A program made the translations under genes and the position numbers. This document shows, in pieces, positions 10,723 through 24,191 of a stretch of DNA of 64,000 nt. The notes beneath the pieces were generated by a model. It ran no database searches and was not told the origin of the DNA. It saw only the letters and a program-made list of their open reading frames with translations. The DNA is from Fibrobacterota bacterium (GTDB lineage Bacteria > Fibrobacterota > Fibrobacteria > UBA11236): NCBI GenBank assembly GCA_028287465.1, contig JAQBPO010000076.1, forward strand, positions 1-64,000, written 5' to 3'. Within the stretch, counting starts at the first letter, position 1. Each line of letters begins with the position of its first letter.

Positions 10723-12609
10723 TCATTCGGGCGCCAGGATGGCCAATCGGCCAGGCACGCCCTTGCCGATGGCGCGCGCGACCAGGAGCGAGCCCCGGGG
10801 CCTTTGATCCGGCTTCCAGGCCGCCCGGCCGTTAACGACGGGGACCATTGCCATGAAGGCGCCGCGGGAATCGAAGATCTCCAGATGGGTGGCGCCGGCA
10901 TAGGCAGCCCCGAGCACAAGGCCCTCGCCGTCCCAATGCCAATCCGGGGCCATGGGGAGGATGCCGTCCAGGGACCCGCGCCCTTCCAGGGCGGTAGGGA
11001 TTTCCCCGTCGCTCAGGATGAACAGGGAAACCCCCGGCTGCAGCTGCTCGAACTCGAGATTCACGCTTCCCGCAGCCTCCGTTACCGTATGCGATCCCGT
11101 GATTTGCGTCAGCTTGCCCGCCGCTTCCATCTGATCCCATACCGCCGCGGAAGGGAAGGCCGGCTTGCCGGATTTCTCCCAGACCCGGAAGCAATTGTTG
11201 TGGTTGCGATCCACGCCCCAACGCTGGACCTGCAACTTCCCGGGGGCGTAGGGGAAATTGGAAACCGATAGCCTGACCTTGTCCACGTAGGCCTGCGGGA
11301 TATCATCCCCGTCCCCGCGATTGTGATCGTAGACGAGGATATGCATCCGCCTGCGGGCCTTGTCATAGGTGGCGAATCCGTTGAGGCCCGGTTCGGCCTT
11401 GGTGCCTCCCGTAAGCTGCACCAGGGTATCGGACATCATCCCCATCATCTGGAAGGCGAGGAAGGAAGGCTTGCGGGCGTTGCGTTGGCGCAGGATCATG
11501 CCCATGGGACCGAAGGCCAGGGCCTTGGTATTGTCCCACTCCTCCCAGATGTCCGAGATCACCCAGAAGGCGGCCACGTCGGGGGCGGGCACGCCGCCGT
11601 TCTGGTCCGGGAACATGGAATGCGCCACCTTGGCCACGAAGGACGCGCCGATCTCGCTGTTGTAGGTGTCACCGCCCTTATAGGACGTATTCCATTCGGT
11701 GAGGAAATTCTTCACGTTGAGTTGCGGGTACTTGGCCTTCTTGGCGGCGATGCGGTTGGCCGTGCGCGTATGCGCGCCCACGATGCCGGCCTGGCCGCTC
11801 TGGCCGGGATAGGTGTGCCAGGATACGAAATCCACCTTCACGCTTTTCTTGGCGGGGTTGGCCAGGTTGGCGTTCATGCAATGCTCGATGAAATCGTCCA
11901 TCCATACGCCTTCGGAGATGGCGATGGAGGGCCCGCCCACCTTGGCGTTCGGCAGGGCCTTGGTAAGGCCTTCCACGGCGTAATCGTACAGCTTGAAATA
12001 ATCCTCCTTGCTGCCGCCCCAGAACACCGCGAGGTCCGGCTCGTTCCACACCTCCCAGTACCACTTCTCCACCACGGCCGCGCCGTAGCGTTCCGAAACG
12101 TGCTTGGCGATCCGGTAGCAGAGTTCCATCCACTTGTCGTAGTCCTTGGGCGGGGTGATATTGCCCGGGGAGCCGTTGTACCAGCCGAAGGTCTTGGTAC
12201 CGGACGCGAGGGCCGAAGGCATAAAGCTCAATTCCACCAGCGGTTCCATCTTGACCGATACGATATAATCGTAGATCGAATCCAGGTTCTTCCAGTTATA
12301 GACGGGCGCCCCGTTGATCTCCTTGTAGATGCCGACATCGTCATCCAGGATGCCATGGGCCCGCACCCGCTTCATGCCGAGCTCCTTGGCGGCCATGGCG
12401 TAATGAGCCTTGAAGTTGATCCCCTGGGCGGAGTTGAGGGTCATGTAGATGTGGCAGGAGCCCACGCCTTCCTGCCAGAATTTCTTCAAGGGGCCGATGG
12501 TTTTCGCCGCGTCGACGCCTAGCTGGTAGTCGACGGCGGAGCCCGGGAAGGCGAAGAGGATGAGGATGGACAAAGGACAAAGCAGGTACCGGACCAATAT
12601 TGGATTCAC
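10723..12609 (-). CDS. Secreted GH39-like glycoside hydrolase (beta-xylosidase type), copy 1
   Basis: The 628-residue product has a signal peptide (residues 1-25) and a TIM-barrel glycosidase domain of the GH39/clan A type. The likely acid/base is Glu190 in VWNEP and the likely nucleophile Glu305 in FLTEWN. GH39 enzymes include beta-xylosidases and iduronidases; the substrate here is not known. A beta-sandwich follows, and the last about 70 residues carry LEIFDSRGAF, a weak form of the D-x-x-G-R domain. I chose the GTG at 12607-12609 because AGGAG lies eight bases upstream and the signal peptide then starts at once; upstream in-frame ATG codons give an unlikely tail. A close paralog is at 59834-61801. 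Confidence 0.85.
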   Translation of the reverse strand: MNPILVRYLLCPLSILILFAFPGSAVDYQLGVDAAKTIGPLKKFWQEGVGSCHIYMTLNSAQGINFKAHYAMAAKELGMKRVRAHGILDDDVGIYKEINGAPVYNWKNLDSIYDYIVSVKMEPLVELSFMPSALASGTKTFGWYNGSPGNITPPKDYDKWMELCYRIAKHVSERYGAAVVEKWYWEVWNEPDLAVFWGGSKEDYFKLYDYAVEGLTKALPNAKVGGPSIAISEGVWMDDFIEHCMNANLANPAKKSVKVDFVSWHTYPGQSGQAGIVGAHTRTANRIAAKKAKYPQLNVKNFLTEWNTSYKGGDTYNSEIGASFVAKVAHSMFPDQNGGVPAPDVAAFWVISDIWEEWDNTKALAFGPMGMILRQRNARKPSFLAFQMMGMMSDTLVQLTGGTKAEPGLNGFATYDKARRRMHILVYDHNRGDGDDIPQAYVDKVRLSVSNFPYAPGKLQVQRWGVDRNHNNCFRVWEKSGKPAFPSAAVWDQMEAAGKLTQITGSHTVTEAAGSVNLEFEQLQPGVSLFILSDGEIPTALEGRGSLDGILPMAPDWHWDGEGLVLGAAYAGATHLEIFDSRGAFMAMVPVVNGRAAWKPDQRPRGSLLVARAIGKGVPGRLAILAPE

Positions 12610-13049
12610 GAGGGAATCTCCTGGGAAAGGCCGACTCTCCGGAGGCGTGCGCACATGATGTGGATCCTGGGAGAGAAGGAAATGATGGAACATGACCGCG
12701 CGGCGATGGCGCGTCATTTCCCTCCCGGCAGCCAATCTATCGCCATTCCGGATTCCGGGCTGGGGTTTTCCGCCGGAGGGTTCCGGAGGAGTTGGGAAGC
12801 CTGGAATTTTTGCGTTTTTAGAGGCAAATCCGGGACTGGAAGCCTTGGTTACGGGGTGCCTAAATTCGGCTATTTTTTATAAAGGTTGTCATTTATGCTG
12901 ATCTTTTTAACATATTCGACTGTTTTCTAGGGAAAGGTCGGGGAAGAAATAAGTTTTGCCGGTAAGAGAAAATGAAAATCGTAACCAACAAGACCAGAAC
13001 CATGACCAACGACAAGACTCAACCGAAAACGCACATCCGTGGGGGAACA
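12610..13049. other. Intergenic region between divergent genes
   Basis: This gap separates the minus-strand GH39 gene from the plus-strand DUF6174-like lipoprotein gene. The half nearest the lipoprotein is AT-rich and holds a possible promoter: TTGTCA at 12886-12891 and TAACAT at 12908-12913, 16 bases apart. I see no gene in it. Confidence 0.4.
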
Positions 13050-13547
13050 ATGCGTAATGCCTTCCTGAAAATGACCGTGACCGCCTTTGCCGCCATCAGC
13101 CTGATGGGTTGCCTCAACAACGAGGAAGAGACCCAGCCGCAGGCATCCGGGGTCATCGTCCACGAAGACCAGAAGCTGGCCTTCAAGGAAGGCCATGACC
13201 TTTGGACCGCGAGCAAGCCCCCGAGCTACAGCTACCAGCTGAGCCGGAACTGCTTCTGCTTCCCCTATGGCCGGATGGAAGTCTACGTGGACGCGGACAA
13301 GGTGGTCAAGGTCGACACCATCGAGGGCGTCGAAGGCCCCTACGACCTCGAATCCTTCCACAACGCCCCCAACCTGGACGATGTGTTCAGCCAGGTCGAA
13401 GGCTACCTGAACAATCCCGACTACGAAGTGAAGGCCTCCTATGACGCCAAGATGGGCTACCCCATCACGGTGAAGATCCATCACCTGCTCAACTACGTCG
13501 ACGCGGACGCGGAATTCCTGATCGCCAGCTTCCGCCCCCAGCGCTGA
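13050..13547 (+). CDS. DUF6174-like lipoprotein
   Basis: The 165-residue product begins with a lipoprotein signal ending SLMGC (Cys21). The mature part resembles DUF6174: W-x-x-x-x-P-x-x-Y-x-Y near the start, a paired C-x-C (NCFCF), a short charged turn (VDADKVVKVD) and a C-terminal PITVKIHH strand. The function of the family is unknown. An earlier in-frame ATG (12972) would add 26 polar residues before the signal, so I chose 13050, which has GGGGGA seven bases upstream. A strong terminator follows, so the gene appears to be transcribed alone. Confidence 0.75.
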   Translation: MRNAFLKMTVTAFAAISLMGCLNNEEETQPQASGVIVHEDQKLAFKEGHDLWTASKPPSYSYQLSRNCFCFPYGRMEVYVDADKVVKVDTIEGVEGPYDLESFHNAPNLDDVFSQVEGYLNNPDYEVKASYDAKMGYPITVKIHHLLNYVDADAEFLIASFRPQR

Positions 13548-13620: not shown

Positions 13621-13834
13621 CGTTATCCCATCCCCCCGAATCAGGTAACATTCCCGCTACCCAAGAGTGGCCGGCCGTGCGGACCCAGGGTAACCTTGAA
13701 GCTACCCTGGGCATGGCCTCGAAGCGCCTTGGGCAATCCCGGAAACGCTTCCCCTCGAGCCTCCAATATCCAGTCCCGACGAATGGCGAAAGAAAATATG
13801 GCGTAATCTTATTGATTTCGCCTATTTTAAACCC

Positions 13835-13863
13835 TAGCCAACATATGGATGTAGTAGTATATT
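13835..13863 (+). promoter_or_regulatory. Candidate sigma-70-type promoter of the transport locus
   Basis: TAGCCA (13835-13840, four of six to consensus) and TATATT (13858-13863, five of six) are 17 bases apart in a distinctly AT-rich patch. Transcription would start near 13870, leaving a leader of about 190 bases before the porin gene. The region from the terminator at 13620 to here holds nothing else that I can identify. Confidence 0.45.
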
Positions 13864-13869
13864 GAATTT

Positions 13870-14059
13870 CATCGAATCCAAAAGGGATCCGGGCAAAGCC
13901 GACCAACGGCCTCCCCGCCTGATTCCATCGGACCTGCTACCGGTCATCCGGAGCCCCCCAAGAGCCTGACGCGGCGCCCTTCCGGCCATCGCGCAACCAC
14001 CGGACAACCGGAACCACATCGATCCATTTCCCACCGAAACCTTAGCGAGGAGCGATCCC
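13870..14059 (+). promoter_or_regulatory. Long 5' leader of the transport locus, possible structured RNA
   Basis: If the promoter at 13835 is used, about 190 untranslated bases precede the porin gene. The leader can form small hairpins, for example GCCG-ACCAA-CGGC at 13898-13910 and CCGG-ACAA-CCGG near 14000. The sequence does not match the SAM, TPP, guanidine or c-di-GMP riboswitch consensus features I can recall. It could hold an unrecognised regulatory RNA or be simple leader. Confidence 0.25.
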
Positions 14060-15433
14060 TTGTTGTCTGAATCCAAAACCCTGATCCTGGCCTCCGCGTT
14101 CGCCGCCCTGCATTTGTCGGCAATCGCGGCGGGCGCCCAAACCCTTCCGGATACATCGTCCTCGAACGCGGGGCGCGCGGATACCGCCGTTGCCGCCGAG
14201 GAATCGGCCGTCACTTCCGCCGACGTGCAGGGCGTGCAAACCGATCTGGAGAATTACAAGTTCCAGGTGCAGCGCGACCGCGAGCTGAAGACGGCGCAAT
14301 CCACCCGAGCCCTCCTGGTCACCGGAGTGGTCCAGGGACGCGGAGGTTGGACCGAAGCGCGCGCCGCGACCGGATACCATAAGCATACGGCGGGCGAGGT
14401 GGCCACGGCCCTGGTGGGCTTCACCGGCAACCTGTACCGGGACTACGAGGAGGCGCGCAATCTCACCTACGCCTTGCGCTTCGTCGCCGCGCCCAACGGT
14501 GGGGCCGCCCCGGTAAGCCTGTTGGACGCCACCGTGGGCTATTCCCTGCTGCGCTCCCTGGCCCCGGACGATCAAAGGCTGGATATAGCCTTCGGGCAGC
14601 AGCAGCTGCCGTTCGGGCTGGAGGCCCAGACCACGGATGAATTCAAGCCCGTGATCACCAATGCCCAGTTCGTCGGCGCCTTGGGGTTGGGAGCGCGCCA
14701 GATAGGGCTTATCGCCCGCGGGGATCTCTTCCCCCGGGTCGATTACGGATACAACTACCGGGCCCCGATCGTCCAGTACGCCTTGGGCATGGTTAACGGC
14801 AACGGGCAGAACACCACCGACGACAACGACGCCAAGGATCTGATCGGGCGCCTCGTGCTGACGGTTCCCAGCGACTACCACTCCTGGGTGCGCCAGTTCG
14901 CCGTGGGCGCGACCTACTATAAGGGATGGACCAATCTCTCGGCCCTGAAGCCGGGCGCGACTCCAACGGCGGCCGCCACTCCCGTGGTGGTGGGCCTGGG
15001 GGACCGGCTCCGCACCGGAGTGGACGTCTACTATAACCATCATCCTTTCGGCCTCAACTATGAATGGGTGCTGGGCGAGGATGAGGCCAACGCCCCCGGG
15101 GCCACCGTCAGCAAACGCAATTCCGTGATCCGCAAGACCCGGGGGCAGGTGCTCACCCTGTTCTACAACTTCGGCGAGCAGTTCCTGCGCGGCTACCGCG
15201 CCCAGGGGCGATACGACGACTGGTGGCCCAAGTCCCTGCAGCCGTTCGTGCGCGTCGATCGCTGGGATCCGGACATCCGCGCGGAAAACAACGAGCTGGA
15301 CGTGTACACGGCGGGCGTGAACTTCTTCTTCGCCGAGACCAGCAAGCTGCAATTCAACTACAACACCCGCGTCGACAACGCCAAGGGCACCCGGCTCGGC
15401 GATGCGCAGGCGCAGATCCAGTTCGGATTCTGA
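14060..15433 (+). CDS. Outer-membrane porin, phosphate-selective (OprO/OprP-like) type
   Basis: The 457-residue product has a signal peptide (about residues 1-26, ending AGAQ), a short coiled segment (about 52-78) and a beta-barrel with features of the OprO/OprP porin family, such as FGQQQLPFGLEAQ, IAFGQ and a final strand ending QFGF. Such trimeric porins favour anions. It is the first gene of a locus encoding an ABC importer, so it probably lets the anionic substrate through the outer membrane. The start is a TTG: GAGGAG lies seven bases upstream and the signal peptide begins there, with no better ATG. Confidence 0.75.
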   Translation: MLSESKTLILASAFAALHLSAIAAGAQTLPDTSSSNAGRADTAVAAEESAVTSADVQGVQTDLENYKFQVQRDRELKTAQSTRALLVTGVVQGRGGWTEARAATGYHKHTAGEVATALVGFTGNLYRDYEEARNLTYALRFVAAPNGGAAPVSLLDATVGYSLLRSLAPDDQRLDIAFGQQQLPFGLEAQTTDEFKPVITNAQFVGALGLGARQIGLIARGDLFPRVDYGYNYRAPIVQYALGMVNGNGQNTTDDNDAKDLIGRLVLTVPSDYHSWVRQFAVGATYYKGWTNLSALKPGATPTAAATPVVVGLGDRLRTGVDVYYNHHPFGLNYEWVLGEDEANAPGATVSKRNSVIRKTRGQVLTLFYNFGEQFLRGYRAQGRYDDWWPKSLQPFVRVDRWDPDIRAENNELDVYTAGVNFFFAETSKLQFNYNTRVDNAKGTRLGDAQAQIQFGF

Positions 15434-15474
15434 GCCGCGAAACCCATGTCATCAAGGATAAAAAGGAGCTTAGC

Positions 15475-16563
15475 ATGAATACCTGGAAACTGAAATTCGC
15501 AACCCTGGCGGTGGCCGCCGCCGCCGCGTTCGGCATGGCCCGCGCAGAGAACCCCAAGGTCATCCGGTTCGGCTACCCTGGAACGGGGACCGGCGGGCGT
15601 CCCTATGTGGGAGGCAGTTTCGTGGCCTATGCCCGGGCCGCGGGCCTCCTCGAGCAGGAGTTCAAGAACGACGGCATCAAGGTGGACTGGACCTTCTTCA
15701 AGTTGGCGGGTCCCGCGATCAACGAGGCCTTCGCCAATAAGCTGCTGGACGTCACCCTGCTGGGCGACCAGGCCGCCATCGCCGGCAGGGCCGGGGGCCT
15801 CAATACCAAGATCGTGCTCGCGACCGGGGTGCGCGGGGTGACCTATGTGGTGGTCCCGCCCGATTCCCCAATCCAGAGCATCCAGGATCTGAAGGGCAAG
15901 CGCGTGGCCTTGTTCCGCGGGACCGCCATCCAGCTGGCCGCGAACCGCATCCTGGAGGCCAACGGGCTCTCCGAAAAGGATATCCGGGTGGTGAACATGG
16001 ACGGCCTGGCCGCCCAGGCGGCACTGGCCTCCAAGGACATCGACGCCCTTTTCACCATCGGATCCGGAGCGCTGCAGAACCAGGATCAAGGCATCGGCCG
16101 CATCATCTATTCCGGCAAGGGGGACGACAAGGTGATCGGATACGCCTCCGGCCTTTTGGTGGACGGGGATTTCGAGAAGGCCAATCCGCAAATCGTGCAG
16201 CGCATCGTGAACGTGCTGGTCAAGGCGGCGCAATGGTCCTCGGACGACAGGAACCGCGATGCCCTCCTGCAATCGTGGGCCAAATCGGGCACCTCCTATT
16301 CGGCCTTCAAACGCGACCTCGCCGGCCAGGACGTGAGGGCCATCCTTTCCCCGGTCATCGACGACTATTACCGCGAAACCTGGAAGAAGGCGGTAGCGGA
16401 CGTGAAACGCTTCAAGTTCATCCGCAAGGACGTGGACGTGGATCAGTGGATCGATTCCCGCTACGTGGACAATGCCCTCAAAGCCCAGGGCCTCGAGAAC
16501 AACTGGACCCGGTTCGGGGCGGACGGCAAGGCCGTCCGGGTCTCGGCGGTGCAGGAACCATGA
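15475..16563 (+). CDS. ssuA-like: ABC transporter substrate-binding protein, SsuA/TauA/NrtA type
   Basis: The 362-residue product has a signal peptide (residues 1-24, ending ARA) and a periplasmic binding fold of the aliphatic sulfonate/taurine/nitrate (NMT1-like) group: VIRFGYPGTG at the mature N-terminus, LLDVTLLGDQAAI and LKGKRVALFRGT. It should capture a small, probably anionic compound for the permeases downstream. The ATG at 15475 has AAAAGGAG six bases upstream; earlier in-frame codons lie inside the porin gene. The stop overlaps the next start (ATGA). Substrate preference cannot be read from the sequence; the downstream DUF2292 genes point to sulfur. Confidence 0.88.
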   Translation: MNTWKLKFATLAVAAAAAFGMARAENPKVIRFGYPGTGTGGRPYVGGSFVAYARAAGLLEQEFKNDGIKVDWTFFKLAGPAINEAFANKLLDVTLLGDQAAIAGRAGGLNTKIVLATGVRGVTYVVVPPDSPIQSIQDLKGKRVALFRGTAIQLAANRILEANGLSEKDIRVVNMDGLAAQAALASKDIDALFTIGSGALQNQDQGIGRIIYSGKGDDKVIGYASGLLVDGDFEKANPQIVQRIVNVLVKAAQWSSDDRNRDALLQSWAKSGTSYSAFKRDLAGQDVRAILSPVIDDYYRETWKKAVADVKRFKFIRKDVDVDQWIDSRYVDNALKAQGLENNWTRFGADGKAVRVSAVQEP

Positions 16564-17396
16564 GCCGGTCAGCCCTTGCTTCAGGATCCTCCATCCGGTT
16601 TTCCCCGCGCCCGTTCGCGGCCGGCCGCGCTCCCGCGCCGGTGCGGATCCTGGCCGGCCTGGTCCTGCCGTCCGCATTGCTGCTTCTCTGGCACAACGCC
16701 TCGACGCGGGGCTGGGCGCCCCCGCAAATCCTGCCCGCGCCCGCCGTGGCCTGGTCCAGCTTTCTCGACCTCCTCGCCTCCGGGGACCTGCGGACGCATG
16801 TCCAGGCCAGCCTGATCCGGGTGCTCATCAGCTTCGCGCTCGGCTCCGCCGCGGGCCTGGCCCTGGGACTGGCCATGGGACTCTCGCGCCGGCTGGACGA
16901 CCTGTTCGGGGCCGTATTCCACGGGATCAACCAGGTTCCGACCCTGGGTTGGCTTCCGGTATTGATCGTGGTGGTGGGCATCAACGACAGGCTCACGCAT
17001 ATCCTCATCGCCCAGGCCGTATTCGTTTCCGTGGCCATCAATACCCAGCGCGGCATCCGTCAGGTGCCGGAACGCCTGGTGGAGGTGGCGCGCGCCTACC
17101 GGTTGAGCCGGACGCAGTCGCTCCGGAAGGTCGTCCTCCCGGCGGCGGTGCCGCAGATTTTCACCGGCATCCGCTTCGGGCTCGCCAATGGTTGGGCCTC
17201 CCTGGTGGTGGTGGAACTCCTGGTCGGTTCGGAAGGCCTGGGTTACCTGATGAGCTGGGGACGCCAGGCGTTCCAGCTGGACCTGGTGCTGGTCGCCATC
17301 GTCGCGGTCGGGATCATCGGCTGGATCCTGGACGCGGGATTGGCGCGATTGGAAGGCACGTTCACGGCCTGGCGCACGGGTGAGGCGGCGGCATGA
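16560..17396 (+). CDS. ssuC-like: ABC transporter permease 1, SsuC type
   Basis: The 278-residue product has about six hydrophobic segments and the BPD-transporter cytoplasmic loop EVARAYRLSRTQSLRKV followed by VLPAAVPQIFTGIR, which contacts the ATPase. It starts in an ATGA overlap with the binding-protein gene and itself ends in an ATGA overlap with permease 2. The N-terminal 35 residues are polar and Pro/Ala-rich before the first membrane segment. SsuABC-type systems usually have one permease gene; here two different ones are adjacent. Confidence 0.88.
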   Translation: MSRSALASGSSIRFSPRPFAAGRAPAPVRILAGLVLPSALLLLWHNASTRGWAPPQILPAPAVAWSSFLDLLASGDLRTHVQASLIRVLISFALGSAAGLALGLAMGLSRRLDDLFGAVFHGINQVPTLGWLPVLIVVVGINDRLTHILIAQAVFVSVAINTQRGIRQVPERLVEVARAYRLSRTQSLRKVVLPAAVPQIFTGIRFGLANGWASLVVVELLVGSEGLGYLMSWGRQAFQLDLVLVAIVAVGIIGWILDAGLARLEGTFTAWRTGEAAA

Positions 17397-18214
17397 CCTT
17401 CCCGATGCTCCAAAAGAGCCTGCACAAGCGTCGCGGATCGGCCGGCGCGGAAATCCGCCGGTGGCTCTGGAAATCCATCCTGCCCGCGTCCATCCTGGCC
17501 TTTTGGGCCCTGGCCACCCGCTTCCATTGGGTGGATCGGAAAATCTGGGCCTCGCCCGCCCAGGTCTGGCAGGCCACCTTAGGCCTCAACCGGGACGGCT
17601 TCCTATGGCTGGCCCTGGGCGAAAGCCTGCTGCGCGACCTGGCGGGATTCCTTCTCGGCGCGGCGGCCGGTCTGGCGGCGGGAGGCGTTCTAGGATGGTC
17701 CCCCTGGGCCTACCGCCTGGGCGCGCCCACCCTGCATTTCCTGAAGGCCATCGCCATCTTCGCCTGGATCCCTTTGCTGACCATGGTCTTCGGCATCGGC
17801 GAAGCGTCGAAAATCGTTTTCATCGCCCTGGCGGCATTCTATCCCGCCGCCTTGAACACCCTGGAAGGCATCCGCTCCGTGCCCAAGTCCCAGCTGGAGC
17901 TGGCTCGCGCCTACCGCCTGGATCCCTGGCAGCGCCTCCGCAAGGTCATCCTCCCTTCCGCCCTTCCGTCCATCCTGACGGGAGTGCAGGTGGCCCTGAT
18001 CCTCACCTGGCTGGCCACGGTGGGCGTGGAGTATTTCATGAGCGCGGGGCCGAGCGTCGGAGGCATCCTGCTCAACGGCGCGGAGTCCTTCCATCTGGAA
18101 ATCGTTTTCATCGGAATCATCCTGTTGGGGAGCGTCGGCTTCGCCCTCAACCAGGGGGCCCATGCCCTGGGCCGGCGGCTTCTCCGCCATCGACCGCAAA
18201 CCCTTAAAGCCTGA
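17393..18214 (+). CDS. ssuC-like: ABC transporter permease 2, SsuC type
   Basis: The 273-residue product is a second inner-membrane permease with about six hydrophobic segments and the coupling loop ELARAYRLDPWQRLRKV then ILPSALPSILTGVQ. It aligns in layout with permease 1 but is clearly diverged, so the pair is more likely a heterodimer than a recent copy. Its ATG overlaps the stop of permease 1, and the ATPase gene follows after ten bases. Confidence 0.87.
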   Translation: MTFPMLQKSLHKRRGSAGAEIRRWLWKSILPASILAFWALATRFHWVDRKIWASPAQVWQATLGLNRDGFLWLALGESLLRDLAGFLLGAAAGLAAGGVLGWSPWAYRLGAPTLHFLKAIAIFAWIPLLTMVFGIGEASKIVFIALAAFYPAALNTLEGIRSVPKSQLELARAYRLDPWQRLRKVILPSALPSILTGVQVALILTWLATVGVEYFMSAGPSVGGILLNGAESFHLEIVFIGIILLGSVGFALNQGAHALGRRLLRHRPQTLKA

Positions 18215-18224
18215 GGTAGACATC

Positions 18225-19058
18225 ATGACGACAAAAGGAATCCTGGAAATCCGGAACCTGGGGAAGGCCTTTCCCGCCAACGGCCGCAAAGGCTCCTTGC
18301 AGGCGCTCGACGGCATCAACCTTTCCATCCGTCCCGGTGAGTTCGTCAGCATCGTAGGCGGCAGCGGCTGCGGCAAATCGACCCTGCTGCGCCTCATCAG
18401 CGGCCTGGATGACGAATTCCAAGGGGAGATTTCCATCGGCGGCGCCCCCGTACGCGGTACGAGCCTGGATCGCGGGATCGTGTTCCAGGACCTGCGCCTG
18501 CTCCCGTGGCTGACGGCGGAGGCCAATATCGCCCTGGCCCTCGAGAACTCCGGGCTTTCCAAGGCGGATAAGCGCCAGGCCGTCGCCGAACACCTCAAAC
18601 TGGTAGGCCTGGAGAAATTCGCCCAGGCCTATCCGCATCAACTTTCCGGCGGCATGAGCCAGCGCGTCGCCATCGCGCGCGGCCTGGTGAACCGTCCCGG
18701 ATTGCTCCTCCTGGACGAGCCTTTCGGTGCCTTGGACGCCTTGACCCGGTCCCGCCTGCAGGCGGAACTCGAGCGCATCTGGAGAGAGGAAGGCATCACC
18801 ATGATCCTGGTGACCCACGACGTGGAGGAAGCCGTATTCCTCGGGGACCGCGTGATCGTGATGGAGCCCGGACCGGGCCGCATCCGGCGCGAGCTCAGGA
18901 TCCCCCTGCCCCGCCCGCGTCGCCGTTCGGATCCGCGTTTCCTGGAGATCAAGGAAGACATCCTCAGGGAATTCACCGGACCGGAAACGGCGGAAGCCGA
19001 GTCCCTCGAGCCCGCCGGACGCCCGCTCGCCGAAGCGCGGCTGGACTGGGCGGCCTGA
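18225..19058 (+). CDS. ssuB-like: ABC transporter ATP-binding protein, SsuB/TauB type
   Basis: The 277-residue product has a Walker A motif at residues 45-53 (GGSGCGKST), the LSGGM signature, Walker B (LLLLDEPF) and a D-loop followed by the switch histidine in LVTHDVEEAV. The group is that of sulfonate, nitrate and taurine importers. It energises the two permeases encoded upstream. The ATG at 18225 has GAGGTAG upstream; 21 further in-frame codons upstream lie inside permease 2. The C-terminal about 30 residues are a Glu/Ala-rich extension. Confidence 0.92.
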   Translation: MTTKGILEIRNLGKAFPANGRKGSLQALDGINLSIRPGEFVSIVGGSGCGKSTLLRLISGLDDEFQGEISIGGAPVRGTSLDRGIVFQDLRLLPWLTAEANIALALENSGLSKADKRQAVAEHLKLVGLEKFAQAYPHQLSGGMSQRVAIARGLVNRPGLLLLDEPFGALDALTRSRLQAELERIWREEGITMILVTHDVEEAVFLGDRVIVMEPGPGRIRRELRIPLPRPRRRSDPRFLEIKEDILREFTGPETAEAESLEPAGRPLAEARLDWAA

Positions 19059-19102
19059 ACCATGCATAGGAGCCTCGCCATGCCCCATTACCGGGAGAGA
19101 AC

Positions 19103-20032
19103 ATGATCCACATCCTGAATCGATCGGAAACCGCGCCCGGGCCGAGGCCCACGCAAAACGATCCGCGCGGCCCGTCCCATTCCGCAAGGCCGCGGGGAAA
19201 GGCGGCCAAGGTCCTGCGAACCGCGCTGCGCGAGCCGCTCGTGCATTTCATCCTGGCGGGGGCCGTCCTTTACGGGCTGTCGACCCGGTTCGCCGGGGAT
19301 GGGGACAGGCACCTCATACGCATGGGCGACGCGGAGGAAGAACGCATCGCCCGGAACTTCGCGAACCAATACGGCACCGCGCCCTCCGAAGCCCAGCTTA
19401 AGGATTTGATTGGAAGGGAAATCCGCGAAGAGGTCCTGTTCCGCGAGGGAAAGGAGCTCGAACTCGACAAGGGAGACGAGATCATCCGCAGGCGCGTGGC
19501 CCAGAAGTTCGAATTCCTCCAGCTGGATCGCGTCGCCGCCCGCGAGCCGGCCGACGTGGAGCTGATGGAATGGTTCGCGTCCCACCGCGGCCGTTACGCG
19601 GAACCGGAGCGCGCCACCTTCACCCATATCTATTTTTCACCGGACCGGGGCGGTCCGGAAGCCGCCCGCCGGAGGGCGGAAGCGGTCCTGGCCGCCCTCC
19701 GGGAATCGGGAACCGAGCGGGCGCCCGGGCTGGGGGACCGTTTCCCCGACCAATACGATTACGCCGGGGTCGACCGGATGGCGGTGGCGCGGATCTTCGG
19801 CGAATCCCCCTTGGTCGACGGCCTTTTCGCCGCCAGGACGGGGCGATGGGCCGGTCCGTATCATTCCGGTTACGGCGAGCATTTGGTGCGCATCGCCTCC
19901 AGGCAGGCTCCCGTCGCGGTTTTCAGCCAGGTCCGCGACAAGGTCCGCGCCGATTGGCTGGCGGATTTCCGCCAAGCCGGGAACGACAAGGCTTTCGCAG
20001 CGATCCAAGCCCGCTACCGGGTGGTGCGGTGA
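19103..20032 (+). CDS. Membrane-anchored PpiC/parvulin-like peptidyl-prolyl isomerase
   Basis: The 309-residue product has a basic N-terminal tail, one hydrophobic segment (about residues 49-65, FILAGAVLYGL), a helical region with two EEVLFREGKELEL-type helices and a C-terminal domain resembling PpiC parvulins (RATFTHIYFSP, then helices). Such anchored proteins sit on the periplasmic face and assist folding of exported proteins; the isomerase domain here is diverged and its activity is uncertain. It lies 44 bases after the ATPase gene and its stop overlaps the HupE-like start by one base (TGATG), so they are probably translated together. Confidence 0.7.
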   Translation: MIHILNRSETAPGPRPTQNDPRGPSHSARPRGKAAKVLRTALREPLVHFILAGAVLYGLSTRFAGDGDRHLIRMGDAEEERIARNFANQYGTAPSEAQLKDLIGREIREEVLFREGKELELDKGDEIIRRRVAQKFEFLQLDRVAAREPADVELMEWFASHRGRYAEPERATFTHIYFSPDRGGPEAARRRAEAVLAALRESGTERAPGLGDRFPDQYDYAGVDRMAVARIFGESPLVDGLFAARTGRWAGPYHSGYGEHLVRIASRQAPVAVFSQVRDKVRADWLADFRQAGNDKAFAAIQARYRVVR

Positions 20033-21060
20033 TGCCGGGGCCCGTTCGTACGATTGCCAGGGGAATCCGGGGTCTAGTCGCCATGGCATTGGTCCTGGCG
20101 GTCTTGTTTCCCGCTCCCGGTTCCGCGCATGAGGTGCGTCCGGCTTTCCTGGATTTGCATGAGGAGGCGGACGGATCCTTTTCCGCCGTATGGAAGCAAC
20201 CGCGGCGGGGCGAAGCGGCTATCAAGCTGGTTCCCCATATTTCCAATGGATGGCTGGAATCGCCGCCGGCCGAGGTCGATGCCGGCCCCGCCTTCGCCAT
20301 CAAGGTCTGGAAAGGCCTGGATGCCGGCCCCGAGGGGCTCGAGGGCCGGACCCTTTCCGTGGAGGGCCTGGAGAATACCCTGACCGACGTGCTGGTGCGC
20401 GTTTCCTGGGCGGACGGACGCAAGGTGAAGGATATCCTCAGGCCGAGCCGGACGTCCTTGCGCCTGGAGCCGGAAAAGCAGGGCCTGCCCGTGGCCGCTT
20501 ACCTCAGGTTGGGCGTGGAGCACATCCTTACGGGTACGGATCACTTGCTGTTCGTGACCGGCCTGCTCTTGCTGGTTCCCTCCCTTCGGAGGCTCGCAGG
20601 GACGATCACCGCCTTCACGGCCGCGCATAGCCTCACCTTATCGGCCGCCGCCCTGGGTTTCGTCCGGTTTCCCGGACCCCTCATCGAAGCGTTGGTCGCC
20701 ATGAGCATCGTCTTCCTCGCCGTGGAACTCGTCGGGCAAGGGCAGGGGCGTCCCGGCGTGGCGGCGCGCGCGCCATGGCTGTTCGCCTTCGCCTTCGGCC
20801 TCCTGCACGGCCTGGCCTTCGCCGGCGCCCTGGCCGAAACGGGGCTTCCCAAAGAGGACGTACCCCTGTCCCTCTTGTTGTTCAATCTGGGGGTTGAGGC
20901 CGGCCAGTTGCTGTTCGTGTCGGTACTGCTCTCCCTGGCCTGGGCCCTGCGCCGCGCCATTCCACGCCTGCCCGCCTGGACCGCATGGGCCCCGGCCTAC
21001 GGAATAGGATCCTGCGCGGCCTTCTGGTTCCTGCAGCGCGCCCTACCGCTTTTCCGCTGA
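20032..21060 (+). CDS. HupE/UreJ-family-like membrane protein
   Basis: The 342-residue product has a signal peptide (ending GSAHEV), a periplasmic beta-rich region (about 32-160) starting HEVRPAFLDL, and a C-terminal membrane domain of about six segments with HILTGTDHLLFVTGLLLL and FGLLHGLAFAGAL. The G-x-D-H-L and L-H-G-L-A-F histidine motifs match the HupE/UreJ group, whose short members move nickel or similar metals. The long form with an N-terminal periplasmic domain has no settled function. It is coupled to the upstream isomerase-like gene by a one-base overlap and followed after 41 bases by the DUF3604 gene. Confidence 0.8.
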   Translation: MPGPVRTIARGIRGLVAMALVLAVLFPAPGSAHEVRPAFLDLHEEADGSFSAVWKQPRRGEAAIKLVPHISNGWLESPPAEVDAGPAFAIKVWKGLDAGPEGLEGRTLSVEGLENTLTDVLVRVSWADGRKVKDILRPSRTSLRLEPEKQGLPVAAYLRLGVEHILTGTDHLLFVTGLLLLVPSLRRLAGTITAFTAAHSLTLSAAALGFVRFPGPLIEALVAMSIVFLAVELVGQGQGRPGVAARAPWLFAFAFGLLHGLAFAGALAETGLPKEDVPLSLLLFNLGVEAGQLLFVSVLLSLAWALRRAIPRLPAWTAWAPAYGIGSCAAFWFLQRALPLFR

Positions 21061-21101
21061 ACATTCCCATCGAAACCATTCACGCTCATCAAGGAGTCTC
21101 C

Positions 21102-23021
21102 ATGAAACCGATTGAATCCCGTTCACCAGGGTCCGCCCTCTCGACCGCCGTGGCCCTGGCCGCGGGCGTGTTCGCCACCGCGTTGGTCGCAACCGCGGCA
21201 TCGGCCGCTTCGTCCGCCTCGGCCACGGAAGGGCCCGCGCGCCAGGCCTACTACGGCGACCTTCACCTGCACACCTCCTATTCCTTCGACGCCTATGTCA
21301 TGATGGGGACCAAGACGACCCCGGAGCAGGCGTACCGCTTCGCCAAGGGCGACACCGTGCACGTGCTCGGCGAGGCCGTGCGCCGGAAGGAGCCGCTCGA
21401 CTTCCTGGCCGTGACGGACCATTCCGAGAATATCGGCGCGTTCAGGGATCTCGACGACCCCGAAAGCCCCATCTCCAAGAGCGCGTTCGGCAAGAGCGTA
21501 AGGGCCGAAGGACCCGGCGTATTCTGGCGCCGGCTCAAGGATCTGCTGAGCGGCAAGGCCGTGGACGGTTTCGATCTCAAACCGGGTTCGCGTACAGCCT
21601 GGGAACGTTACGTGAAGGCCGCGAATGACAATTACCAGCCCGGAAAATTCACAACCTTCATCGGGTACGAATGGACTTCCATGCCGGACGGCCAGAATCT
21701 GCACCGCAACGTGATCTTCCGGGGGGACCATGCCCCTTATCCCTATACCTCCGGGGATTCTTGGAAGCCCGAGGACCTGTGGGCCTTCCTGGACGCCCAG
21801 CGCAAGCAGGGAGTGGAGGCCCTGGCCATCCCCCACAACGCCAACGCGAGCAACGGACTCATGTACGATTGGAACAATAGCAATGGGAAGCCCATCGACG
21901 AAGCCTACGCCTTGCGGCGCGCCGAGAACGAGCCGCTGACCGAGATTTCCCAGAACAAGGGCGCATCGGAAACCCATCCCGCCCTCTCGCCGAACGATGA
22001 GTTCGCGAACTTCGAGATCTTCGACCACTTGCTGATCTCCCCCAAGAAAAGCGCGCCGGGCGGAAGCTATGTGCGCGACGCATTAGGACGGGGATTGGAA
22101 TTGGAGAAGCGGACGGGAGCGAACCCTTTTAAATACGGAGTGGTGGGCGGCTCGGATTTCCATGGCGGCCTGTCCCAATCCGACGAGGCAGCTTACGAGG
22201 GGAACATCGGCGGGAACGATAGCGCTTCCCGCAAGAGCATCAAGGTGGCGCTGGCCGGGGTCTCCGGGGACGCGCCGGGCAAAGCCGGCAAGGACGATGG
22301 GGATGGCGAACATGGGCCGTTCAAGGTACGGGAAACCGGTTCGGGAAACCTGGCCGCGGTCTGGGCCGAGAGGAACACCCGGGAATCCATCTACGACGCC
22401 TTGCGCCGCAAGGAGACCTTCGCGACGTCCGGATCCCGCCTCAAGCTCAGGCTTTTCGGCGGCTGGGATTTCGGCAAGGATCTGCTGAAGGAAAAGGACT
22501 GGGTTTCCGCCGCCTATGGCTCCGGCGTCCCCATGGGCGGCGACCTTCCCGCGCGGGCGGGCAAATCCCGTCCCCCGCGCTTCGTAGTCTGGGCCGCCAA
22601 GGATCCCAACGGCGCCAACCTGGACCGCGTCCAGATCATCAAGGTCTGGCTCAAGGGCGGCAGGCACCAGGAGAGAATCTTCAACGTCGCCTGGTCCGGC
22701 GATCGCAAGGCGGATGCTAAAGGCCAGGTGAAGCCGGTGGGTAACACCGTGGATACCCATACGGGAAAGTACGGGAACACAATCGGAGGCACCGAACTGG
22801 CCGCGGTCTGGGAGGATCCGGAATTCGACGCGGCGGCGCCCGCCGTATACTACCTGCGCGTCCTGGAAATCCCCACGCCCCGCTGGTCCACCCTCTTGGC
22901 TGCCAGGAATGGCCAGCCGCTGCCGAAGGACGCTCCCGCCACCTTGCAGGAGCGCGGTTGGTCCTCGCCCATCTGGTATACCCCGGCCAAAACCCCGGTG
23001 GAGCCCGGTCCTAAAGGGTGA
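21102..23021 (+). CDS. Secreted DUF3604 protein (PHP-like metal-dependent fold)
   Basis: The 639-residue product has a signal peptide (about residues 1-36) followed by a DUF3604 domain. Metal-binding signatures of the PHP type are visible: H55-x-H57 in GDLHLHTSYS, D106-H107 in LAVTDHSEN, and later VVGGSDFHGG. The length matches the family (about 620-690). PHP enzymes hydrolyse phosphoesters and related bonds; the DUF3604 substrate is unknown. The gene is preceded by AAGGAG at good spacing and closes the co-directional run that starts with the porin, so it may process the imported compound in the periplasm (inference). Confidence 0.85.
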   Translation: MKPIESRSPGSALSTAVALAAGVFATALVATAASAASSASATEGPARQAYYGDLHLHTSYSFDAYVMMGTKTTPEQAYRFAKGDTVHVLGEAVRRKEPLDFLAVTDHSENIGAFRDLDDPESPISKSAFGKSVRAEGPGVFWRRLKDLLSGKAVDGFDLKPGSRTAWERYVKAANDNYQPGKFTTFIGYEWTSMPDGQNLHRNVIFRGDHAPYPYTSGDSWKPEDLWAFLDAQRKQGVEALAIPHNANASNGLMYDWNNSNGKPIDEAYALRRAENEPLTEISQNKGASETHPALSPNDEFANFEIFDHLLISPKKSAPGGSYVRDALGRGLELEKRTGANPFKYGVVGGSDFHGGLSQSDEAAYEGNIGGNDSASRKSIKVALAGVSGDAPGKAGKDDGDGEHGPFKVRETGSGNLAAVWAERNTRESIYDALRRKETFATSGSRLKLRLFGGWDFGKDLLKEKDWVSAAYGSGVPMGGDLPARAGKSRPPRFVVWAAKDPNGANLDRVQIIKVWLKGGRHQERIFNVAWSGDRKADAKGQVKPVGNTVDTHTGKYGNTIGGTELAAVWEDPEFDAAAPAVYYLRVLEIPTPRWSTLLAARNGQPLPKDAPATLQERGWSSPIWYTPAKTPVEPGPKG

Positions 23022-23063
23022 AAACGGCGGTAGACTGATTTTTTACTTGCCAAATCACCCTTT
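23013..23063 (+). repeat. Nine-base inverted repeat spanning the end of the DUF3604 gene
   Basis: AAAGGGTGA (23013-23021, including the stop codon) is complementary to TCACCCTTT (23055-23063). The 33-base spacer contains a run of six T. It could be a weak terminator or a regulator site overlapping the promoter of the DUF2292 genes. Confidence 0.35.
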
Positions 23064-23075
23064 GGAATCCATATT
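23047..23075 (+). promoter_or_regulatory. Candidate promoter of the DUF2292 pair
   Basis: TTGCCA (23047-23052, five of six to consensus) and CATATT (23070-23075, four of six) are 17 bases apart in an AT-rich gap upstream of the first mini-protein gene. Half of the inverted repeat at 23013-23063 lies in the spacer, so a bound protein could control it. Confidence 0.4.
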
Positions 23076-23098
23076 TCTACTGTACCTATAGAGATTAT

Positions 23099-23344
23099 AT
23101 GTTTAAGTATTCCAAACGATCCGCATCCCTCCTTAAAATGAATCGGCCGTTGGCCGGGCCGTCCGGCCCGGAACGCGTCCTCGTAGTCCTGGAGAAATGG
23201 AGCAGAAGTGATTTGCTCTCGGTCTTGGAGGCCCTGAACGGAGTCCCGTACGGATCGGTGGAAGTCACCATCCGCGCCTCGAGAGTGGTGAGGATCCAAA
23301 GCAACAACGCGGTTTCCGACCGGTCCGCCAGAGGACCCGCATGA
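23099..23344 (+). CDS. DUF2292/YezD-family mini-protein 1
   Basis: The 81-residue product carries the DUF2292 core in its middle: LLSVLEALNGVPYGSVEVTI then RASRVVRIQ. DUF2292 proteins are about 60 residues; this one has about 35 extra residues at the N-terminus, so translation could instead begin at the ATG at 23138. The family recurs beside sulfate and organosulfur uptake genes, for example OscA of Pseudomonas, needed for organosulfur use. Its place just after an SsuABC-type locus supports a sulfur role. The biochemical role of the family is unknown. Confidence 0.75.
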   Translation: MFKYSKRSASLLKMNRPLAGPSGPERVLVVLEKWSRSDLLSVLEALNGVPYGSVEVTIRASRVVRIQSNNAVSDRSARGPA

Positions 23345-23363
23345 TTTTTCCGGAGGAACGAAG

Positions 23364-23546
23364 ATGGAAGATGGGATCCCGAACAATAACCAGGGCGATT
23401 ACCGGCCCGTCCATGAGACCGGCCGCAATGAAATCCAGTTCATCCTGAACGCCTTGCGCGGTCTGCGCTACGGATCGGTGGAAATCATCGTCCAGGATTC
23501 CCGCGTGGTGCAGATCCAGCGCTTGGAAAAGCAGCGTTTGGTCTGA
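23364..23546 (+). CDS. DUF2292/YezD-family mini-protein 2
   Basis: The 60-residue product has the full DUF2292 core: FILNALRGLRYGSVEIIV then QDSRVVQIQRLEK, at the usual family length. It follows mini-protein 1 after 19 bases, with GGAGGA seven bases before its ATG. The cores of the two proteins are about half identical, so the pair is an old tandem duplication. It is the last gene of the locus. Confidence 0.85.
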   Translation: MEDGIPNNNQGDYRPVHETGRNEIQFILNALRGLRYGSVEIIVQDSRVVQIQRLEKQRLV

Positions 23547-23633
23547 GGCCGCGAGGCCGCCGGATTACGGCCGCTCATTGCCCCGCTTCCGGCCAATAGC
23601 TTGTTTATAGGGAACAGACCAACGAGGCCCATT

Positions 23634-24191
23634 ATGCGCAATCGTCTGCAAAGCCTGAGAATAGCCGTATTGGCGACCGACGGGGTAGAGGAATCCGAAT
23701 TCGGGGAACCGGTCGCGGCCTTCAAGGAAGAAGGCGCGGAGGTTTCCCTGGTCTCCCCGAAACCCGGTTCCATCGCGGCCTGGAAGAACGGAAACTGGAG
23801 CCGATCGATTTCGGTGGATATCCGGCTGGAAAAGGCCGACGCCTCGGATTTCGACGCCCTCATCCTGCCCGGGGGCGTCATCAATCCGGACCGGCTCCGC
23901 ATGATCCCGGCCGCGGTGGAATTCGTCAAGGCGTTCCAGGAAGAGGGCAAATGCATCGCCGCGATTTGCCACGGTCCCTGGCTGCTCGCGGAGGCGGACC
24001 TGGTGCGGGGACGGACCGTGACGTCTTGGCCGTCCTTGAAGACGGACCTGAGGAACGCCGGGGCGAATTGGGTGGATCAGGCGGTGGTGGAGGACGGGAA
24101 CATCATCACCAGCCGCAAGCCGGACGACATCCCCATGTTCAATGCGAGGGTGACGGAAGCGCTGGAACGATCCCTGGCCGGGAAAACCTAG
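23634..24191 (+). CDS. DJ-1/PfpI-family protein
   Basis: The 185-residue product has the DJ-1/PfpI fold signature: a first strand RIAVLATDGVEE, DALILPGG, and the nucleophile elbow AAICHGPWLL with Cys112 and His113, plus a conserved Glu near residue 20. The PfpI/YhbO subgroup is linked to stress protection (deglycase or chaperone activity, debated). I chose the ATG at 23634 (GAGG six bases upstream). It converges with the beta-helix gene, overlapping it by 53 bases. Confidence 0.9.
   Translation: MRNRLQSLRIAVLATDGVEESEFGEPVAAFKEEGAEVSLVSPKPGSIAAWKNGNWSRSISVDIRLEKADASDFDALILPGGVINPDRLRMIPAAVEFVKAFQEEGKCIAAICHGPWLLAEADLVRGRTVTSWPSLKTDLRNAGANWVDQAVVEDGNIITSRKPDDIPMFNARVTEALERSLAGKT

Follow-up and report, generated by a model that had tools for sequence, protein, structure and literature searches.

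A possible organosulfur scavenging locus in a Fibrobacterota bacterium that joins an SsuA-type importer to a PpiC-HupE-DUF3604 module

What can an SsuA-type importer be for when no desulfurizing oxygenase accompanies it? The question is raised by a locus in a 64,000-nucleotide stretch of a Fibrobacterota genome (assembly GCA_028287465.1, contig JAQBPO010000076.1, positions 1 to 64,000; the whole stretch is called the window here, and the 5.8 Mb genome it comes from G000). Ten genes specify an outer-membrane porin, an ATP-binding cassette (ABC) importer made of an SsuA-type binding protein, two permeases and an ATPase, a PpiC-like protein, a HupE_UreJ_2 protein (HupE), a secreted DUF3604 protein and two DUF2292 proteins. 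Our answer, held with modest confidence, is that the locus serves to scavenge organosulfur compounds during sulfur limitation, with DUF3604 as the hydrolase.

The locus would be switched on at a shortage of sulfur or cysteine. A sulfur-containing organic anion would be admitted by the porin and hydrolyzed in the periplasm by DUF3604, a predicted PHP-type metallohydrolase, whose folding might be aided by the PpiC-like protein and whose metal might be handled by HupE. The organosulfur compound, or a sulfur-bearing product of it, would then be taken in by the importer. Both DUF2292 (OscA-like) proteins would take part in the same response, under Rrf2-family control via a palindrome at 23084-23102. 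The support is sequence-based and consists of the gene content, an operator held in common with sulfur-assimilation genes, the presence of DUF2292 in sulfate loci, the kinship and context of the importer, the PHP fold and residues of DUF3604, the recurrence of the PpiC-HupE-DUF3604 triad, and an enrichment of sulfatases around DUF3604.

Gene order and transcription units

The initial annotation described ten co-directional genes with tight spacing or overlaps, and this description holds: coordinates and strand were confirmed, and Pfam upheld the family names of all ten products (Table 1). Overlaps of 1-4 bases occur at three adjacent gene pairs and a gap of 10 bases at one, the remaining gaps within the first eight genes being 41-44 bases. 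Scanned against the promoter consensus, the 10 kb showed just two promoter-like sites on the + strand, one before the porin gene and one before the DUF2292 pair. They are consensus matches, not mapped promoters, and both sit in stretches conserved in G083, a genome of the same genus, with differing flanks; the block around the porin site is near-identical there. At least two transcription units are probably present, one running from the porin gene through the binding-protein, permease, permease, ATPase, PpiC and HupE genes to DUF3604, and one formed by the two DUF2292 genes. The DUF2292 pair, having its own promoter-like site, is thus probably a separate unit, which qualifies the initial description.

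G083 has the eight genes in identical order, followed by a single DUF2292 gene that is the counterpart of DUF2292b. Its SsuA and DUF3604 proteins are 87% and 79% identical, respectively, to those of the window. Of 151 genomes sampled from the phylum, these two alone have full-length DUF3604, and a close SsuA relative occurs only in G083, G109 having a more distant SsuA pair. Because both are so rare, the eight-gene block is probably an acquired unit retained in part of one genus. Whole-genome searches of G000 found one DUF3604 gene and two DUF2292 genes, all three at the locus.

Table 1. Coordinates of the locus, of the genes that flank it, and of the operator matches at Rrf2 genes of G000
Feature	Position	Strand	Remarks
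Promoter region, main operon	13825..13867	+	Sigma-70-like TAGCCA-17-TATATT at 13835-13863
Outer-membrane porin, Porin_O_P	14060..15433	+	TTG start; Pfam 28.3 bits, cut-off 20.9
SsuA/NMT1-type periplasmic substrate-binding protein	15475..16563	+	Pfam NMT1; PDB relative SsuA 3uif
ABC permease 1, SsuC-like	16560..17396	+	Pfam BPD permease
ABC permease 2, SsuC-like	17393..18214	+	Pfam BPD permease
ABC ATPase, nitrate/taurine/sulfonate group	18225..19058	+	Pfam
Membrane-anchored PpiC-like protein	19103..20032	+	Pfam Rotamase_2; weak NifM similarity
HupE_UreJ_2 protein, candidate metal transporter	20032..21060	+	Pfam 158 bits
Secreted DUF3604 protein, predicted PHP-type metallohydrolase domain and beta-sandwich domain	21102..23021	+	Pfam 693 bits
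Promoter-like site, DUF2292 unit, TTGCCA-17-CATATT	23047..23075	+	Consensus scan
Operator ACCTATAGAGATTATATGT, pattern ACMTATA-N5-TATAKGT	23084..23102	+	Just 3' of -10, overlaps DUF2292a start codon
DUF2292-like protein a	23099..23344	+	Weak Pfam match, 23.7 bits, cut-off 22; absent from G083
DUF2292 protein b, OscA-like	23364..23546	+	Pfam 54.6 bits, cut-off 22
Flanking GH39-family glycosidase	10723..12735	-	Outside locus
Flanking DUF6174 protein	12972..13547	+	Outside locus
Flanking DJ-1/PfpI protein	23601..24191	+	Outside locus
Operator match, G000	C36:81166		Spans Rrf2-1 start codon; <=2 mismatches
Operator match, G000	C36:81650		Just 3' of Rrf2-1, before porin-Sbp-CysT-CysW-CysK/CBS; <=2 mismatches
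Operator match, G000	C86:1164 (1164-1182)		Before Rrf2-2-CysH-CysK-MoeB; <=2 mismatches

The sulfur operator and the DUF2292 proteins

The operator at the DUF2292 promoter is a perfect 7-5-7 palindrome, and G083 likewise has an exact palindrome, ACATATAGGTTTTATATGT, in the same place. The search pattern was drafted from these two sites after sequences upstream of DUF2292 and Rrf2 genes in related genomes had been viewed; neither G000's nor G083's own Rrf2 loci had been seen by then. The window has no second match with fewer than three mismatches. In the genome as a whole, three of the nine other matches with at most two mismatches are at Rrf2 genes, and all three are repeated in G083. On contig C36, Rrf2-1 is followed by genes for a Porin_O_P porin, a sulfate-binding protein, CysT, CysW and a CysK/cystathionine-beta-synthase with a CBS domain; on C86, Rrf2-2 is followed by phosphoadenylyl-sulfate reductase (CysH), CysK and MoeB/ThiF. 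The layout of -35, -10, operator and start codon is alike at the window site and at the C36 Rrf2 site. The remaining matches are in or near reading frames with no evident link to sulfur. One of these, with two mismatches, is inside a reading frame at C28:11751 and perhaps due to chance; the short contig C28 also bears three sulfatases (C28:2823, 15103 and 17114).

G000 has a putative Rrf2-type sulfur regulon of two regulators, each heading a sulfur-assimilation operon, with a palindromic operator in common (C36:81166-81668 and C86:1164-1182); our literature search found no description of such a regulon. As in the CymR (Rrf2) cysteine regulon, Rrf2 regulators adjoin, and have operators in common with, genes for sulfate uptake, cysH and cysK. 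CymR is also the closest named equivalog of both proteins. However, their scores of 88 and 82 are far below its cut-off of 195, and Rrf2-1 differs in having a cysteine cluster that resembles those of Fe-S Rrf2 proteins. Among solved structures 4cic, an entry named simply as a BadM/Rrf2 regulator, matches best, and CymR is a close relative. At the locus the operator common to regulator and assimilation genes occurs at the DUF2292 unit only, and it is very likely that this unit belongs to the sulfur regulon. The porin promoter carries at best a weak, half-site-like version of the operator, ACATATGGA, at 13841. That the main operon is under sulfur control is reasonably likely, and it may answer to the same regulator as the DUF2292 unit.

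The initial annotation took the DUF2292 proteins as a pointer to sulfur, and the operator common to two sulfur-assimilation loci agrees with this, as does the position of DUF2292 in sulfate loci of related genomes. The order is Rrf2, DUF2292, Porin_O_P and sulfate-binding protein in G092, of the same genus, and DUF2292, Porin_O_P and sulfate-binding protein in G059, also a congener; G023, of the same family, has Rrf2, DUF2292, porin and sulfate-binding protein. In G000 and G083 the sulfate locus is without DUF2292, which is found at the DUF3604 operon instead. Elsewhere in the phylum DUF2292 occurs near an NlpA (methionine-type) binding protein or TusA. In G052:C84 (L117) a DUF2292 gene pair lies among TusA and, judged by eye, DsrE-like, nitrogenase-component-like and formylglycine-generating-enzyme-like genes, which hints at a role of DUF2292 in other sulfur traffic.

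In Pseudomonas, the gene for the DUF2292 protein OscA belongs to a cluster for a sulfate ABC transporter and is induced together with sbp (PMC2996968). The likeness to the present case is that a small DUF2292 protein accompanies genes for uptake of a sulfur source, which in the congeners are directly those for sulfate-binding proteins. The differences are that the window DUF2292 scores 41 against the OscA equivalog NF033785, whose cut-off is 85, and that the window operator is of the Rrf2 type. Both window proteins do exceed the Pfam DUF2292 cut-off (Table 1).

The importer and the DUF3604 module

The binding protein, permeases and ATPase are encoded together, as expected of an organosulfur importer, and the best solved relative of the binding protein is SsuA 3uif (E 1e-47). 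The porin is of the same family as that of the Rrf2/sulfate loci. The nearest plasmid relatives of the binding protein, about 49% identical or less, were sampled from annotated proteobacterial records, with one further record lacking annotation. In 11 of the 11 annotated loci a binding protein, two permeases and an ATPase occur together, and in all 11 a TauD/TfdA oxygenase and/or a luciferase-like (LLM) flavin monooxygenase is nearby (four of the oxygenases were checked). Extras are a sulfatase-like gene, soxC, a sulfotransferase gene and msuE, each in one locus. Organosulfur uptake operons of the AtsRBC type may also be comparable to the window importer.

The window resembles SsuABC/TauABC systems in its NMT1/SsuA-type binding protein, permease and ATPase, and in a gene order like that of the plasmid relatives. 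It differs in having two permease genes, in having the porin gene lead the operon, and in lacking TauD, SsuD or a cytoplasmic sulfatase in the operon; the slot that an oxygenase occupies in the importer relatives is taken by PpiC-HupE-DUF3604. The absence of an SsuD- or TauD-type oxygenase from the locus had been noted initially and is confirmed, and TauD is absent from the whole genome. The two LLM proteins of the genome were considered as a hidden SsuD and rejected, as their groups are MsnO8 and TIGR03885. The suggestion of a sulfur substrate is supported by the oxygenase contexts, the relationship to 3uif and the operator common with sulfur loci. The importer quite likely handles an organosulfur compound; phosphonate or nitrate as its substrate is unlikely.

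As to DUF3604, the initial view of a secreted PHP-like protein is upheld. A secretion signal is present by eye. An AlphaFold2 model made with 51 homologs (mean predicted local distance difference test 88.7, predicted template modelling score 0.91) has as its best solved match the two-domain PHP-like protein 3e38 (BVU_3505; E 1.5e-7), followed by the PHP domain of RNase AM and by BAD_1165; the second part weakly resembles immunoglobulin-like sandwiches. Numbered on the full-length protein, residues H55, H57, D106, H107, H245, D352 and H354 show 98-100% conservation across the 51 sequences, forming the HxH, DH, H and DxH motifs expected of a PHP metal centre. DUF3604 is thus like known PHP hydrolases (3e38, CehA/McbA) in predicted fold, beta domain and metal-ligand motifs. 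It differs from them in that a PDB sequence search gave no match for it, nor for HupE profiles, and in that it scores 21.6 with the CehA/McbA domain NF038032, far below the cut-off of 80. Action of DUF3604 on an organosulfur substrate is quite possible, if short of probable.

HupE combines a beta-rich extracytoplasmic N-terminal domain, which has no Pfam match, with membrane helices that carry invariant H, D, H, H, H and E residues, and it is, from its sequence, a candidate metal transporter. A fold search gave no significant match, and weak matches to ZIP proteins were not used. That it supplies the metal of DUF3604 is conceivable and somewhat doubtful.

In a collection of species-level genomes, at least 542 DUF3604 loci were confirmed and the best 80 surveyed, with Pseudomonadota, Bacteroidota and Acidobacteriota among the phyla represented. 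In the flanking sequence retrieved, 48 of the 80 have PpiC, 43 have HupE and 42 have both, these two genes being mostly adjacent and on one strand. The triad is also found on rhizobial and Rhodobacter plasmids. A large "antisense" cluster among the neighbours was taken to be a shadow frame of DUF3604 and set aside. Tandem arrays of DUF3604 paralogs occur at L032, L036, L052 and L077, all but one of them with a single PpiC and a single HupE gene, which suggests that one such pair serves several DUF3604 enzymes. On rhizobial and Microvirga plasmids (L013, L014, L018) the module has DUF1254 and adenylate-cyclase genes in its vicinity.

Sulfatases with the formylglycine motif are about ninefold enriched near DUF3604: 18 genes in 13-14 loci, several less than 500 bases from DUF3604, against 2.1 expected in the 1.43 Mb read. 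The background (147 sulfatases in about 102 Mb) is from 20 of the genomes, some of them picked for a sulfatase at the locus, which raises the background and makes the estimate conservative. Poisson probabilities are 1e-11 for genes and 3e-7 for 13 loci, indicative only, given paralogs and kinship. Five of the sulfatases were checked with Pfam. Such neighbours may point to the substrate of DUF3604. Loci with adjoining sulfatases include L024, L035, L038, L050, L052, L057, L069, L070, L076 and L077.

Competing explanations and significance

Several results weigh against organosulfur scavenging by the locus as a whole. Even with the threshold relaxed to E 0.01, the best 80 DUF3604 loci yielded no SsuA, SsuC, DUF2292 or counterpart of the porin, and the importer and triad are seen fused only in G000 and G083. 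The recurrent linkage expected from the initial annotation is therefore real for DUF3604 with PpiC and HupE, and fails for importer, porin and DUF2292, the whole combination recurring in G083 only. Given these importer-free relatives, the function of the triad itself may be something else. For an imported sulfonate there is no recognised cytoplasmic desulfonating enzyme in the genome, nor is there SsuD or TauD in the operon as in the SsuABCD and TauABCD desulfonation systems. The binding protein scores 157.5 with the NCBIfam SsuA subfamily TIGR01728, just below its cut-off of 163.5. Operator matches with at most two mismatches are fewer than in the reversed control (10 vs 27 in G000, 8 vs 39 in G083), and the case depends on where the matches lie. 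Finally, a search for the full operator 5' of the porin-to-DUF3604 operon gave only the half-site, at 6.2 bits vs 28, the full operator being confined to the DUF2292 unit.

The alternative that fares best, rather unlikely in our estimate, reserves the sulfur role for importer, porin and DUF2292, and treats the triad as a mobile hydrolase module of the periplasm that does something else, such as cleaving esters or carbamates for carbon, and was inserted here by chance. The triad is indeed without the importer in all of the surveyed loci, is often on plasmids and in some cases is near DUF1254 and cyclase genes; DUF3604 looks acquired, given its rarity in the phylum; and the nearest named group, CehA/McbA, to which the similarity is weak, comprises metallohydrolases including carbamate hydrolases. 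However, in the window the triad is embedded in an operon of overlapping or close genes, at the slot of the desulfurizing oxygenase, this arrangement is kept in two species, and DUF3604 loci elsewhere are enriched in sulfatases.

Distinctly unlikely is a scheme in which DUF3604 frees inorganic sulfate from sulfate esters in the periplasm, Sbp-CysT-CysW takes up the sulfate, and what is left after desulfation, or another sulfur source, is the cargo of the SsuA-type importer. An oxygenase would be unneeded, which fits the absence of TauD; DUF3604 has sulfatase neighbours; and the genes of the sulfate importer share the operator. But these neighbours fit equally well with DUF3604 attacking a different bond in those molecules, the oxygenases that accompany the importer relatives are intracellular, and we know of no PHP-type sulfatase.

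That the locus is unrelated to sulfur, its importer being for nitrate, a vitamin precursor or a phosphonate, is very improbable: NMT1-type proteins and this ATPase group do include nitrate and thiamine-precursor transporters, and it is a nitrate model that gives the ATPase its highest score, albeit under the cut-off, but the sulfur operator, DUF2292, the oxygenase contexts of the importer relatives and SsuA as best solved relative all argue otherwise.

Organosulfur scavenging, with DUF3604 as the periplasmic hydrolase, remains the reading we prefer for this locus. A broader extension of it, improbable at present, is that DUF3604 represents a new class of PHP-type, oxygen-independent periplasmic organosulfur hydrolases, acting as sulfatases or freeing the sulfur part, matured by PpiC-like foldases, supplied with metal by HupE_UreJ_2 proteins and distributed widely across Pseudomonadota, Bacteroidota and Acidobacteriota. 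Large as the DUF3604 family is, hardly any papers deal with it: searches on DUF3604, DUF2292 and HupE/UreJ returned almost nothing, DUF3604 being mentioned once, incidentally. Here the module stands where relatives of this organosulfur importer have their enzyme, beside a sulfur-regulated unit, and an Rrf2-type sulfur regulon with its operator is outlined in a little-studied phylum. The constant PpiC and HupE partners, the sulfatase enrichment nearby and this operon together give a first concrete, testable direction for the function of DUF3604.

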